Shown piece by piece: positions 39,333 through 50,812 of a stretch of 64,000 nt of DNA; the first letter of the stretch is position 1; every line of letters begins with the position of its first letter. This DNA is from Cyclobacteriaceae bacterium. GTDB taxonomy: Bacteria > Bacteroidota > Bacteroidia > Cytophagales > Cyclobacteriaceae. The DNA is taken from contig JAHBTX010000002.1 of assembly GCA_019638395.1 (NCBI GenBank), forward strand, positions 496,001-560,000, written 5' to 3'. The notes beneath the pieces are model-generated. The model saw only the letters and a program-made list of their open reading frames with translations. It was not told the origin of the DNA and made no database searches. Made by a program: the position numbers and the translations under genes.

Positions 39333-39560
39333 ATGGAAAAATATCTCGATCATATTACAATTGACAAAGAAATCCGTTTTGGTAAGCCAACCATAAAGGG
39401 AACCCGTATTGCGGTTTCAGATGTGTTGCAGTGGTTTGCATCGGGTATGACAGAAGAAAAAATTTTAGAAGATTATCCATACTTATCTAAGGAACAAATA
39501 AGGGCTGCATTGCTTTTTGCGGCACATAAAGAAGAACTCACTAAGATTATCGCTGCCTGA
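39333..39560 (+). CDS. DUF433 antitoxin, second pair
   Basis: 75 residues: DKEIRFGKPTIKGTRIAVSD followed by WFASGMTEEKILEDYPYLSK is the DUF433 pattern. The two DUF433 proteins in this window share the GKPxIKGTR core but differ elsewhere, so they are not a recent duplication. The stop overlaps the next ATG by one base (TGATG). Confidence 0.85.
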   Translation: MEKYLDHITIDKEIRFGKPTIKGTRIAVSDVLQWFASGMTEEKILEDYPYLSKEQIRAALLFAAHKEELTKIIAA

Positions 39561-39889
39561 TGAAGTTATTGTTGGATGCGAATCTCTCATGGAGATTGGT
39601 AAAACCACTTCAAAGCCATTTCACGGTAAATCATATATTGGATTTCTTTAAGCATAATGAACGAGATTATATTCTGTGGGATTTTGCTAAAAGAGAAGAC
39701 TATACCATTATTACTAACGATGAGGATTTTGTCCACATCCTCTTATCCAGAGGATGGCCGCCAAAAATAGTTCTGATCAAAACTGGAAATCAATCTAATG
39801 ATTTTATTCTTAATCTTCTTATCGCTAAGAAGACAGAGTTAGAAGCTTTTCACAATAAAGGTGACTTAGGTCTGTTGTTAATAGCATAA
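39560..39889 (+). CDS. DUF5615 PIN-like toxin, second pair
   Basis: 109 residues. MKLLLDANLSWRLVKPLQSH with D6 at the usual first acidic position, and YTIITNDEDFVHILLSRGWP with TNDEDF in the middle, are the DUF5615 layout. Predicted nuclease toxin. The stop codon abuts the stop of the convergent permease gene with no spacer (39889/39890). Confidence 0.82.
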   Translation: MKLLLDANLSWRLVKPLQSHFTVNHILDFFKHNERDYILWDFAKREDYTIITNDEDFVHILLSRGWPPKIVLIKTGNQSNDFILNLLIAKKTELEAFHNKGDLGLLLIA

Positions 39890-42932: not shown

Positions 42933-43012
42933 GTTCGCCATTTGTAATGGCGAACGTTAGATGGTAATGATTTTAAAATCGGGCTTATCTGGAGTCGGGA
43001 TTATAAATCCGG
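42933..43012. repeat. Palindromic repeat family C, copy 2 (most complete)
   Basis: Hairpin GTTCGCCATTTG/TAATGGCGAAC (42933-42955), then the palindrome GATTTTAAAATC (42969-42980), then a second hairpin CGGGATTATAAATCCGG (42996-43012). It occupies the centre of the 366-bp gene-free gap 42786-43151. The rest of the gap holds GCCAGTAACCAGCC-like short repeats (43081-43110) and the sigma gene promoter region. Confidence 0.6.
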
Positions 43013-43151
43013 AATAGCAAGTGCCTCCATGAGTGAAGCGTACAATATAGTATCCGGATTAAATAATTAAACGCCAACCTGCCAGTAACCAGCCACGAGC
43101 GACCAGCAGTCTTTTTTTACCTAACTTCCTGCAACATCCGTACAAGTCCAC

Positions 43152-44109: not shown

Positions 44110-44233
44110 CTATGAAATGTCATTCCGGATGAGCGTGACGAATCGAATTATGAGATCGAATTTATTAAGCAATTGATAAACTTCTTCTAAGCACTCGCGA
44201 ATTCCGGAATCCCCGGTTAGGTATGCACAAGAT
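44110..44233. repeat. Repeat unit A, copy 1
   Basis: Begins CTATGAAATGTCATTCCGGA and carries GCGAATTCCGGAATCC near its right end (44197-44212); the two inner ATTCCGG motifs are inverted and can pair across about 65 bp. The unit is about 123 bp. It is followed directly by CTATGAAA of unit B. The gene-free stretch 44093-44556 consists of A1, B1 and A2. Confidence 0.75.
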
Positions 44234-44380
44234 CTCTATGAAAAGCTCTTCATACTTAACTCATCAACACTTCATCGGGATCGCGGTATGGGTTTGAAGT
44301 CTAATCCTTGGTTACTTAAAAACCAGCACCCAACCGCGATGACTGCCTTGTAATGATTGCGCAATGTACTCAGACACTTG
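44234..44380. repeat. Repeat unit B, copy 1
   Basis: Starts with the half-palindrome CTATGAAAAGCTCTTCATAC. Carries TCGGGATCGCGGTATGGG (44275-44292) and the inverted match CCCAACCGCGATGAC (44329-44343), forming a hairpin of about 13 bp arms, then GCCTTGT. Same order as in B2 (44920-45046) and B3 (48922-49050). Confidence 0.75.
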
Positions 44381-44502
44381 CTATGAAATGTCATTCCGGA
44401 TGCGCGAGTGAATTGCAATTGGATGGGCCTTGCTAAATAATATTAAACATCTTTATTCAAAGATGGCGAATTCCGGAATCCCGCGGAAGTAGCACAAGCT
44501 TG
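44381..44502. repeat. Repeat unit A, copy 2
   Basis: CTATGAAATGTCATTCCGGA at 44381-44400 and GGCGAATTCCGGAATCCCG at 44465-44483, ending AGCACAAGCTTG. The following CTATGAAAT (44503-44511) is the left half of the A/B junction palindrome, but here the GIY-YIG gene region comes next instead of unit B. Confidence 0.75.
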
Positions 44503-44556
44503 CTATGAAATACAACCGAATAAAGGTATATTTTAAGATGTATAATTGGCTCATGT

Positions 44557-44883
44557 TTATTTATCATGTTCTTTATACAACACAAACTCCTTTTCATCGA
44601 ACCAATCTTTACTTAAATCAGTCCAATCTGGATTAAGCCCGTTTATTAAATTAACCTTCCAACCTCTGTTGTATTTTTTAATTTGCTTTTCGCGGTGTAT
44701 AGCTTCTTTAACATTTGAATATTCTTCGAAATAGACCAACTGATCACAATTATAGCGTGCTGTGAAACTTTTTTTGTTTCTCTTCACCTTATGATCAAAT
44801 ACACGATCTTCCAGATTATTTGTTATCCCCGTATAGAGTACGGTGTGTCGTTTATTTGACATGATGTAAACGAAGTACTGCAC
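44557..44883 (-). CDS. GIY-YIG nuclease family protein
   Basis: 108 residues. QYFVYIMSNKRHTVLYTGIT carries the GIY-YIG core (VYI, then YTG), NNLEDRVFDHK supplies the arginine helix, and VKEAIHREKQIKKYNRGWKV the catalytic glutamate region. It is a stand-alone domain as in the UhbA/UPF0213-like group, with no extra DNA-binding domain. A single-strand or nicking endonuclease is the family expectation. It lies between repeat A2 (ends 44502) and repeat B2 (starts 44920), exactly where other copies have A joined to B. Confidence 0.9.
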   Translation of the reverse strand: MQYFVYIMSNKRHTVLYTGITNNLEDRVFDHKVKRNKKSFTARYNCDQLVYFEEYSNVKEAIHREKQIKKYNRGWKVNLINGLNPDWTDLSKDWFDEKEFVLYKEHDK

Positions 44884-44919
44884 AAATTAAATTTAATGAA
44901 AAACCATCGCTTGAATATA

Positions 44920-45046
44920 CTTTTTATAGCCGGCTCACCTATTCTCATCGGGATCGCGGTATGGGTTTGAAGACTTGGTTTTAGCTATCTAAATCGGTTG
45001 CCCAACCGCGATGACCGCCTTGTGATAAGTTGTGCAAGCATCCATA
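44920..45046. repeat. Repeat unit B, copy 2
   Basis: Starts CTTTTTATAG (44920-44929), matching CTTTTCATAG in the A4/B3 junction, then GGCTCACCTATTCTCATC, GGATCGCGGTATGGG and CCCAACCGCGATGACC with GCCTTGTGATAAG. The remaining gap to 45178 has a CGCCTCTGCGCCTTTGCGG motif (near 45080) and the region upstream of the amidohydrolase; no gene is visible. Confidence 0.7.
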
Positions 45047-48645: not shown

Positions 48646-48674
48646 TTTGGATAGAATTATACCGAACAAACTCA

Positions 48675-48797
48675 CTATGAAATGTCATTCCGGATTCGCG
48701 TGATATTTGTTGAATGAAATCATGTTCTTTAAATTAAGGGTAAACTCAATTTGAACACTGGCGAATTCCGGAATCCCGAGAAAGCAGCACAAGTTTT
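48675..48797. repeat. Repeat unit A, copy 3
   Basis: CTATGAAATGTCATTCCGGA then TTCGCGTG, and GGCGAATTCCGGAATCCCG, ending AGCACAAGTTTT. Directly followed by copy 4, a period of 123 bp. The gene-free stretch 48590-49242 contains the terminator, A3, A4 and B3, then AT-rich upstream sequence of the AlbA_2 gene (49051-49242) in which I see no further element. Confidence 0.78.
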
Positions 48798-48921
48798 CTA
48801 TGAAATGTCATTCCGGATTCGCGTGAGAATGGCTGAATGAAATCGTGCTTCTTAAACAAAGGATGAACTAAATTTTAACATTGGCGAATTCCGGAATCCA
48901 GCAGAATTAGTAACAAGTTTT
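48798..48921. repeat. Repeat unit A, copy 4
   Basis: Same ends as copy 3 and the same inner TGAATGAAATC motif, the most similar pair of the family. It ends AACAAGTTTT and passes straight into CTATGAAAT of unit B3. Confidence 0.78.
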
Positions 48922-49050
48922 CTATGAAATGCTTTTCATAGTTAGTTCACCTCTTCTCTATTGGGATCGCGGTATGGGATTGACGTTTTCGATTTCATGT
49001 AAGTGGAATGAGTTACCCAACCGCGATGACCACTTCGTAGTAGGAGGTGT
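48922..49050. repeat. Repeat unit B, copy 3, joined to A
   Basis: Begins with the palindrome CTATGAAATGCTTTTCATAG, the clean A/B junction, then TTCACCTCTTCTCTATTGGG, ATCGCGGTATGGG and CCCAACCGCGATGACC. It represents an A-B junction without the GIY-YIG gene. Confidence 0.75.
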
Positions 49051-50658: not shown

Positions 50659-50682
50659 TGGAAGTGAGTCGACCAGGATACT

Positions 50683-50731
50683 AAAGATTTTAAAATCTTT
50701 GGTAATTGGGTTCGGGATTACAAATCCCGAA
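50683..50731. repeat. Palindromic repeat family C, copy 3
   Basis: Perfect 18-bp palindrome AAAGATTTTAAAATCTTT (50683-50700), then GGTAATTGGG and the perfect hairpin TTCGGGATT/AATCCCGAA (50711-50731). It lies 81 bp before the photolyase start; a partial copy lies just after the photolyase stop. Confidence 0.65.
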
Positions 50732-50812
50732 AAGCAATGGTATTTCTCTGATCCCTATGTGGTTAAAAGTAAAAACTTAAAACACTTTCCTGTATTCCCT
50801 GTTTTATCAAAC

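Follow-up and report, generated by a model that had tools for sequence, protein, structure and literature searches.

The 64,000-nucleotide stretch of a Cyclobacteriaceae bacterium genome analyzed here (assembly GCA_019638395.1, contig JAHBTX010000002.1, positions 496,001 to 560,000; hereafter the window) carries two clusters of tagged hairpins, at 44110-45040 and 48665-49049, and within the first of them a small gene for a GIY-YIG nuclease (44557..44883, minus strand, GTG start, 108 aa; Pfam PF01541). The hairpins are of two kinds. Unit A, on the plus strand, is laid out as CTATGAAAT-GTC-ATTCCGGA ... TCCGGAAT-CC, and unit B, on the minus strand, as GTC-ATCGCGGT ... ACCGCGAT-CCC; in both, GTC is unpaired, the stem opens with AT and the tail with C, and the stem sequences differ. 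The first cluster reads A1 B1 A2 [gene] B2 and the second A3 A4 B3, with the members of each A-B pair inverted relative to one another and their GTC ends outermost. A1 (44119..44210, plus strand) has its GTC tag at the 5' end, CTATGAAAT before it and the stem ATTCCGGA/TCCGGAAT, and B1 (44280..44343, minus strand) has a GTC tag and the stem ATCGCGGT/ACCGCGAT. The strict scan and folding also gave A2 (44390..44479), A3 (48684..48774) and A4 (48807..48897) on the plus strand, the last a direct repeat of A3 at a spacing of 123 bp, and B2 (44953..45015) and B3 (48966..49030) on the minus strand.

At two of the three A-B junctions the spacer holds a small palindrome around CTATGAAATGC(A/T)TTTCATAG and no gene: CTATGAAAAGCTCTTCATAC between A1 and B1 (44236..44255) and CTATGAAATGCTTTTCATAG between A4 and B3 (48922..48941). 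At the third the palindrome is split, its left half (CTATGAAAT, 44503..44511) following A2 and its right half (CTTTTTATAG, 44920..44929) preceding B2, and the GIY-YIG gene lies between the halves. A first-pass annotation, made from the sequence alone, had put the gene in just this position, and the coordinates are confirmed; of the two gene-free junctions it listed, the one at 48922 stands, whereas the one it placed at 44234 occupies 44236-44255. The strict scan, which required GTC, a 7-nt stem with A as its first base and a mate no more than 100 nt away, returned seven such hairpins (the four A units of the plus strand and the three B units of the minus strand, confined to 44119-45015 and 48684-49030), besides six further matches in the window that look like chance. 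Folding of the B hairpins and the junction beats shuffled sequences (z -3.0 to -3.9); the A units, with their long loops, do so weakly (z -0.45 to -2.8).

The protein matches PF01541 well above the curated cut-off (E 2.8e-15, 56.8 bits against 22.6) and no other Pfam family. In an alignment of 41 rows, Y17, G19, R27 and N84 are invariant and Y6 and E65 are conserved in at least 90%; we take the conserved Tyr, Arg and Glu to hold the catalytic roles. Its structure model (predicted local distance difference test, pLDDT, 94.6) is closest among solved folds to UPF0213 and Slx1, at 15-24% sequence identity. Searches of Rfam and PADLOC gave no match, and NCBIfam only matches far below its cut-offs; PHROGs gave one weak family of unknown function, and the PDB chain sequences one marginal match to UvrC (E 0.51). 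Related small genes are annotated just as 'GIY-YIG nuclease family protein' or 'excinuclease ABC subunit C'.

Small GIY-YIG nucleases of this kind are probably the partner enzymes of the CGTC repetitive extragenic palindromes (REPs), in the role that REP-associated tyrosine transposases (RAYTs) have for REPs with a GTAG tag. This reading draws on observed linkage, matched flanks, agreement between REP type and protein, co-occurrence, and presence or absence at orthologous sites. The CGTC REP superfamily was reported in 2013 by Di Nocera from five phyla as elements that "apparently lack a dedicated transposase" (PMC3733652). By its own account that work looked at transposase genes, and it reported no partner enzyme.

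The linkage was examined in the best 80 of 572 loci, from many phyla, obtained by scanning 84,980 species genomes. The hairpin was defined as GTC and then five nucleotides beginning with A, with the mate within 60 nt, which fits the ATTGC type that has only five pairs beside the tag. This definition was fixed after viewing loci and consulting PMC3733652, and was later reused unchanged for the same-locus gene control and for alphaproteobacteria. A GTC hairpin lies within 300 bp of the gene in 77 of the 80 loci and on both sides in 61; by eye, the three misses (L053, L088, L105) have variants with a mispaired position next to the tag. When all 64 tags were ranked, GTC came first; GAG, in second place, mostly marks the opposite end of these elements as read on the other strand. 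Hairpins flank 50 of the 80 GIY-YIG genes on both sides within 100 bp, compared with 7 of the 830 other genes in these loci, a control in which seven other tags showed no enrichment. With perfect 8-nt stems the near/far ratio of GTC was 7.4, the highest of the 15 tags shown (TCG reached 6.7); with one mismatch and loops to 100 nt allowed it was weak, 2.3 versus 1.0-1.9 for eleven other tags. Fixed AT-tails with five-nucleotide cores were found in only 15 or 20 of the 80 loci, and other-tag controls in 0-5 of 80.

The same association recurs elsewhere. Strong homologs occur in 46 of 144 alphaproteobacterial genomes, where GTC was again the first tag (22 of 30 loci, 29 of the 30 lying outside the first set). 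Of the remaining eight, viewed by eye, six have variant GTC hairpins, L201 has a hairpin whose tag is replaced by GCC, and nothing clear is visible in L202. Annotated plasmids yielded 32 matching records, and all six regions that were opened have hairpins on both sides by eye. One of these genes lies between sufB and sufC of the suf cluster on Azospirillum lipoferum 4B plasmid p3 (L302), with CGTC REPs on both sides; the flanks in A. lipoferum and S. meliloti are, by eye, classical CGTC REPs. Nearer to the window, the stronger homologs in relatives number 22 when the window's own is counted (L018-L039), and for 18 of them a plausible hairpin of this form, varied in its stem, lies no more than 300 bp away. 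The weakly matching GIY-YIG loci among the 34 scanned (L040, L042-L047) do not have these hairpins apart from chance-like matches, and the other GIY-YIG genes of the same genome (L002-L005) do not have flanking hairpins of this form apart from one such match. The earlier proposal of a nuclease/palindrome unit comparable to RAYT/REP but with a GIY-YIG enzyme is supported far beyond the window, by the 80-locus, alphaproteobacterial and plasmid sets and by the hairpin types, copy numbers and filled and empty sites described below. What is constant is a CGTC-type hairpin on each side of the gene rather than the CTATGAAATG palindrome, a feature of this clade's own A/B family.

Tags point outward on both sides in 34 of the 61 two-sided loci and in 12 of 14 in the alphaproteobacterial set, and tags-outside pairs form the largest class of adjacent hairpins in the 80 loci (61 of 129). 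The upstream and downstream stems of one gene are more alike (similarity 0.90) than stems of different loci (0.70; 59 loci, 0 of 10000 permutations). In genomes with several copies, some of whose stretches repeat loci of the first set (L151, L157, L163, L165, L170), most GIY-YIG paralogs have different hairpin types: ATCCCGG, ATCCTCG and ATTCTCG in a Jiella genome, and ATTGCGAG, ATTCCTGC, ACTCTGAA, ATTCCCAT and ATCCTGAA in a Patescibacteria genome of 1.4 Mb. A shared type was seen for L186 and L187 and for the tandem copies of L169. By a looser test, 35 of 45 gene copies in such genomes have a hairpin on both sides and four have none, all of them in one genome (G173). Stems also follow the protein across phyla: for the nearest protein from another phylum the stem similarity was 0.750 where 0.660 was expected (0 of 2000 draws), in a test of 124 entries with a hairpin within 200 bp that used 13 of the 30 relatives' loci and left out four whose phylum has no name (L049, L078, L100, L108).

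REP copy number and the nuclease gene also go together. Copies of the pattern GTCATTGCGAN{8,38}GCAATC were counted in 296 genomes of the class, the reversed control being almost always zero. Among genomes with a strong homolog, 60 of 95 had at least three copies, as did 11 of 60 that had weak homologs only and 13 of 141 that had none, the line between strong and weak (E 1e-25) having been set after the list was seen. Within families the odds ratio between homolog and REP copies is 5.4-6.6, and 0 of 10000 shuffles reached the observed count.

In its own 4.78-Mb genome the A core has six exact copies and the B core three exact copies and a degenerate one. Three gene-free places outside the window have, by eye, hairpins at the same sort of palindrome: an A-B pair (L011), an A unit with another hairpin (L006) and a B-like hairpin beside the palindrome (L017). 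Where the gene is present it need not lie within an A-B pair; L019 and L020 differ in this. Within the genus, 6 of 40 genomes contain A units, and it is these in which the neighboring gene is most similar. Behind the tail of 16 of the 29 distinct A units an inverted GTC hairpin follows within 150 bp (and of a few more by eye). A close nuclease homolog (at least 77% identity) was found in 3 of 5 tested genomes with A units and in 0 of 31 without (p 0.0014, from one clade and so not from independent genomes).

The window site, compared across 12 of 23 loci, has a sigma/anti-sigma-like pair of genes on one side and an amidohydrolase-like gene on the other, as named from the sequence. The orthologous site is free of A/B repeats in G008, has an A remnant and an A-B dimer but no gene in G023, an A-head remnant in G012 and a B unit in G031, and the genome studied here has A-B-A-gene-B; orthologous sites thus occur both with and without the unit. 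Conversely, the GIY-YIG gene of G023 (L019) occupies an intergenic site where the genome studied here (L017) has hairpins only, the sites being matched by eye via a neighbor gene. In G353 (L129) the orthologous site, upstream of the amidohydrolase-like gene, has, by eye, an A head followed by a different, longer GIY-YIG reading frame with the look of an intron endonuclease.

Filled and empty sites are also found farther away. At a site in Chryseobacterium, where the loci of 30 of 98 genomes were viewed by eye, eight have GTCATTGCG ... gene ... CGCAATGAC or a close variant, five have the same two neighboring genes and no nuclease gene (two of these with hairpin remnants), and 17 have another neighbor gene. 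The neighbors are presumably a ribonuclease-like gene and an inhibitor-like gene. At least one filled copy (L240) is seemingly broken by a stop. In Hanstruepera, where 13 of 22 loci were viewed, the unit of H. flava splits a gene pair, which we take to be sensor-kinase/regulator-like, that lies within ~20 bp in 11 of the 12 other viewed loci (by eye). Given these filled and empty sites, the REP-gene-REP block is gained or lost whole, and its edges, so far as can be judged from flanks this diverged, coincide with the GTC tags.

Measured against the published description of CGTC REPs, the window's hairpins agree in some features and depart in others. The description gives an unpaired CGTC, TGTC or CCTC tag at one end, an 8-9 bp stem starting A-T, and a loop of 4-5 nt with other sizes in a few families; HH dimers (tags outside) predominate (PMC3733652). 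Here the tag is TGTC in A, AGTC or GGTC in B and CGTC in the A. lipoferum relative. The stems of A (ATTCCGGA/TCCGGAAT) and B (ATCGCGGT/ACCGCGAT) agree with the description, and so do the tags-outside dimers counted above, for A units and for adjacent pairs alike. The HH arrangement matches these loci with the gene replacing the dimer spacer. Some published dimer spacers have small stem-loops, and A. lipoferum and S. meliloti are common to both sets (PMC3733652). The loops of A and B, however, run to tens of nucleotides. Because of this loop length and the first tag letter of B, A and B are best described by their sequence as CGTC-like and not as strict members.

In mode of action the nearest parallel to the system is RAYT/TnpA-REP (the REPtron, with its REPINs), in which the gene is likewise flanked by short tagged hairpins and inverted dimers and enzyme and REP co-evolve (PMC8266576; PMC3116915; PMC3733652). 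As there, the gene here is flanked by REPs, and their cognate status rests on matched stems, paralog types and cross-phylum stem similarity. Judged by this comparison the system is not RAYT, since enzyme family and tag both differ: RAYT is an HUH tyrosine transposase that cuts its REP as a single strand at the tag, GTAG, and here the enzyme is GIY-YIG and the tag GTC. Among the search results listed, all from open-licence literature, no paper connected GIY-YIG genes with REPs, which does not show that such a link is absent from print.

Several observations count against the partner-enzyme reading. The association signal is dependent on the hairpin definition: with 6-nt stems, flanking on both sides within 100 bp falls to 11 of 80 versus 12 of 767, and a control tag, GAC, is enriched as well (14 of 80 versus 38 of 745 within 200 bp). 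The P values take related loci, such as those of Chryseobacterium, as independent, and they are not. Four of the 22 stronger loci (L027, L028, L031, L035) have no hairpin or chance matches only, and only one of the five G173 copies (L179-L183) has one. Orientation varies, with 11 in/in and 16 mixed arrangements among the 61 two-sided loci. G012 and G031 carry A units and no close nuclease, and the 13 homolog-free genomes noted above still have at least three REP copies. The largest such exception, G095, has 454 ATTGCG-type copies in 3.9 Mb and no homolog at E 1e-10; candidate explanations are a partner that was lost, fragmented or diverged, or another enzyme. Target-site duplication is not evident by eye at the Chryseobacterium site, where the flanks are too diverged. 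The agreement between protein and REP could stem from joint transfer rather than recognition, and cleavage and mobilization by the enzyme are steps that we infer.

The main alternative is that the genes are homing genes that land in REP clusters, the nuclease cutting REPs and its gene being copied into dimers while the REPs themselves are not spread by it. GIY-YIG homing endonucleases, such as I-TevI and the free-standing Seg genes, share the catalytic domain family, and they too are small genes present or absent at orthologous sites; a homing enzyme cuts the allele that lacks its gene, which is then copied into the cut. Homing would suit the varying position and orientation of the gene within REP arrays, the occurrence of REPs without it, the intron-type frame behind the A head in G353 and the G023 gene in a site that is hairpin-only in the genome studied here, the last two judged by eye. 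It fits poorly with the co-occurrence of gene and REP copy number within families, with the favored tags-outside arrangement, and with the sites of L058 and L070, where several relatives lack the whole REP-gene-REP block and not the gene alone. The present gene differs from those homing endonucleases in that no intron was seen, the 108 aa contain no separate DNA-binding domain, and it is intergenic and REP-flanked. We consider homing unlikely.

Far less probable still is that REPs and gene are passive cargo of another host transposase, RAYT or other. Mobilization by other transposases is named as one possibility for CGTC REPs in PMC3733652, which also reports that no tyrosine transposase gene was flanked by CGTC REPs and that other associations were fortuitous; cargo status moreover leaves the paralog-specific REP types and the co-occurrence with GIY-YIG genes unexplained. 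Nor do we give more than slight credence to an indirect linkage, already disfavored, in which both pile up in permissive intergenic regions and the hairpins serve a selfish or repair gene only as terminators or mRNA stabilizers. REPs do lie between genes and can have effects at the RNA level (PMC3733652), but just 7 of 830 other same-locus genes have hairpins on either side, hairpins with seven other tags showed no enrichment at these loci, and the stems match on both flanks.

If the small GIY-YIG gene does encode the partner nuclease of the CGTC-type REPs around it, the autonomous unit would be REP-gene-REP, with GTC tags mostly outside, and gene-free A-B pairs would be the non-autonomous form, like the HH dimers of CGTC REPs. 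The enzyme may recognize its own REP when this is folded as a strand or extruded as a cruciform (a four-way junction) and make its cut beside the GTC tag; repair or replication of the cut would then place a copy of the unit, or of a bare dimer, elsewhere. Such a substrate is plausible because the nearest folds include Slx1, which by its entry title processes branched DNA; we know of no report of Slx1 or UPF0213 as mobile or REP-linked. GIY-YIG enzymes hydrolyze DNA without a covalent intermediate, so movement would have to differ in chemistry from RAYT strand transfer and should lean more on host repair. We put at about even the wider proposition that one of the two REP superfamilies is a mobile system of its own, in which structure-specific GIY-YIG nucleases make a cut at the GTC tag of the cognate hairpin or cruciform and repair then copies REP-gene-REP units and bare dimers within the genome, a nuclease-only transposition without transposase extending from Patescibacteria and Bacteroidota to alphaproteobacteria.

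Other features were noted along the way. A further inverted-repeat unit (GATTTTAAAATC ... GGGATTACAAATCCC) has two copies in the window (42960-43020 and 50677-50737, 75% identity), and a similar unit lies, by eye, beside A/B remnants in L131 and L133. At 39333-39889 the window has two adjoining small genes that we take to resemble a DUF433/PIN-like pair of toxin-antitoxin type. Another set of small GIY-YIG genes, with weak similarity to the one in the window, lies within ~125 bp of a tRNA gene in six of nine scanned loci (L002, L040, L043, L044, L046 and L047; not L004, L042 or L045). Behind the gene in L046 and L047 there are, by eye, what seem to be copied tRNA 3' ends, and this set may target tRNA 3' ends. 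In L042 (G019) the C-terminus of the GIY-YIG protein runs into AQG/VEPVE-type repeat sequence, which we suppose could be another palindromic repeat family read as protein.

How CGTC REPs spread was left open in 2013, and a candidate enzyme with a clear repeat partner makes that question directly testable. If the partnership is true, small nuclease genes of a common family would acquire a role, and the REP lifestyle would have arisen with two unrelated enzymes.
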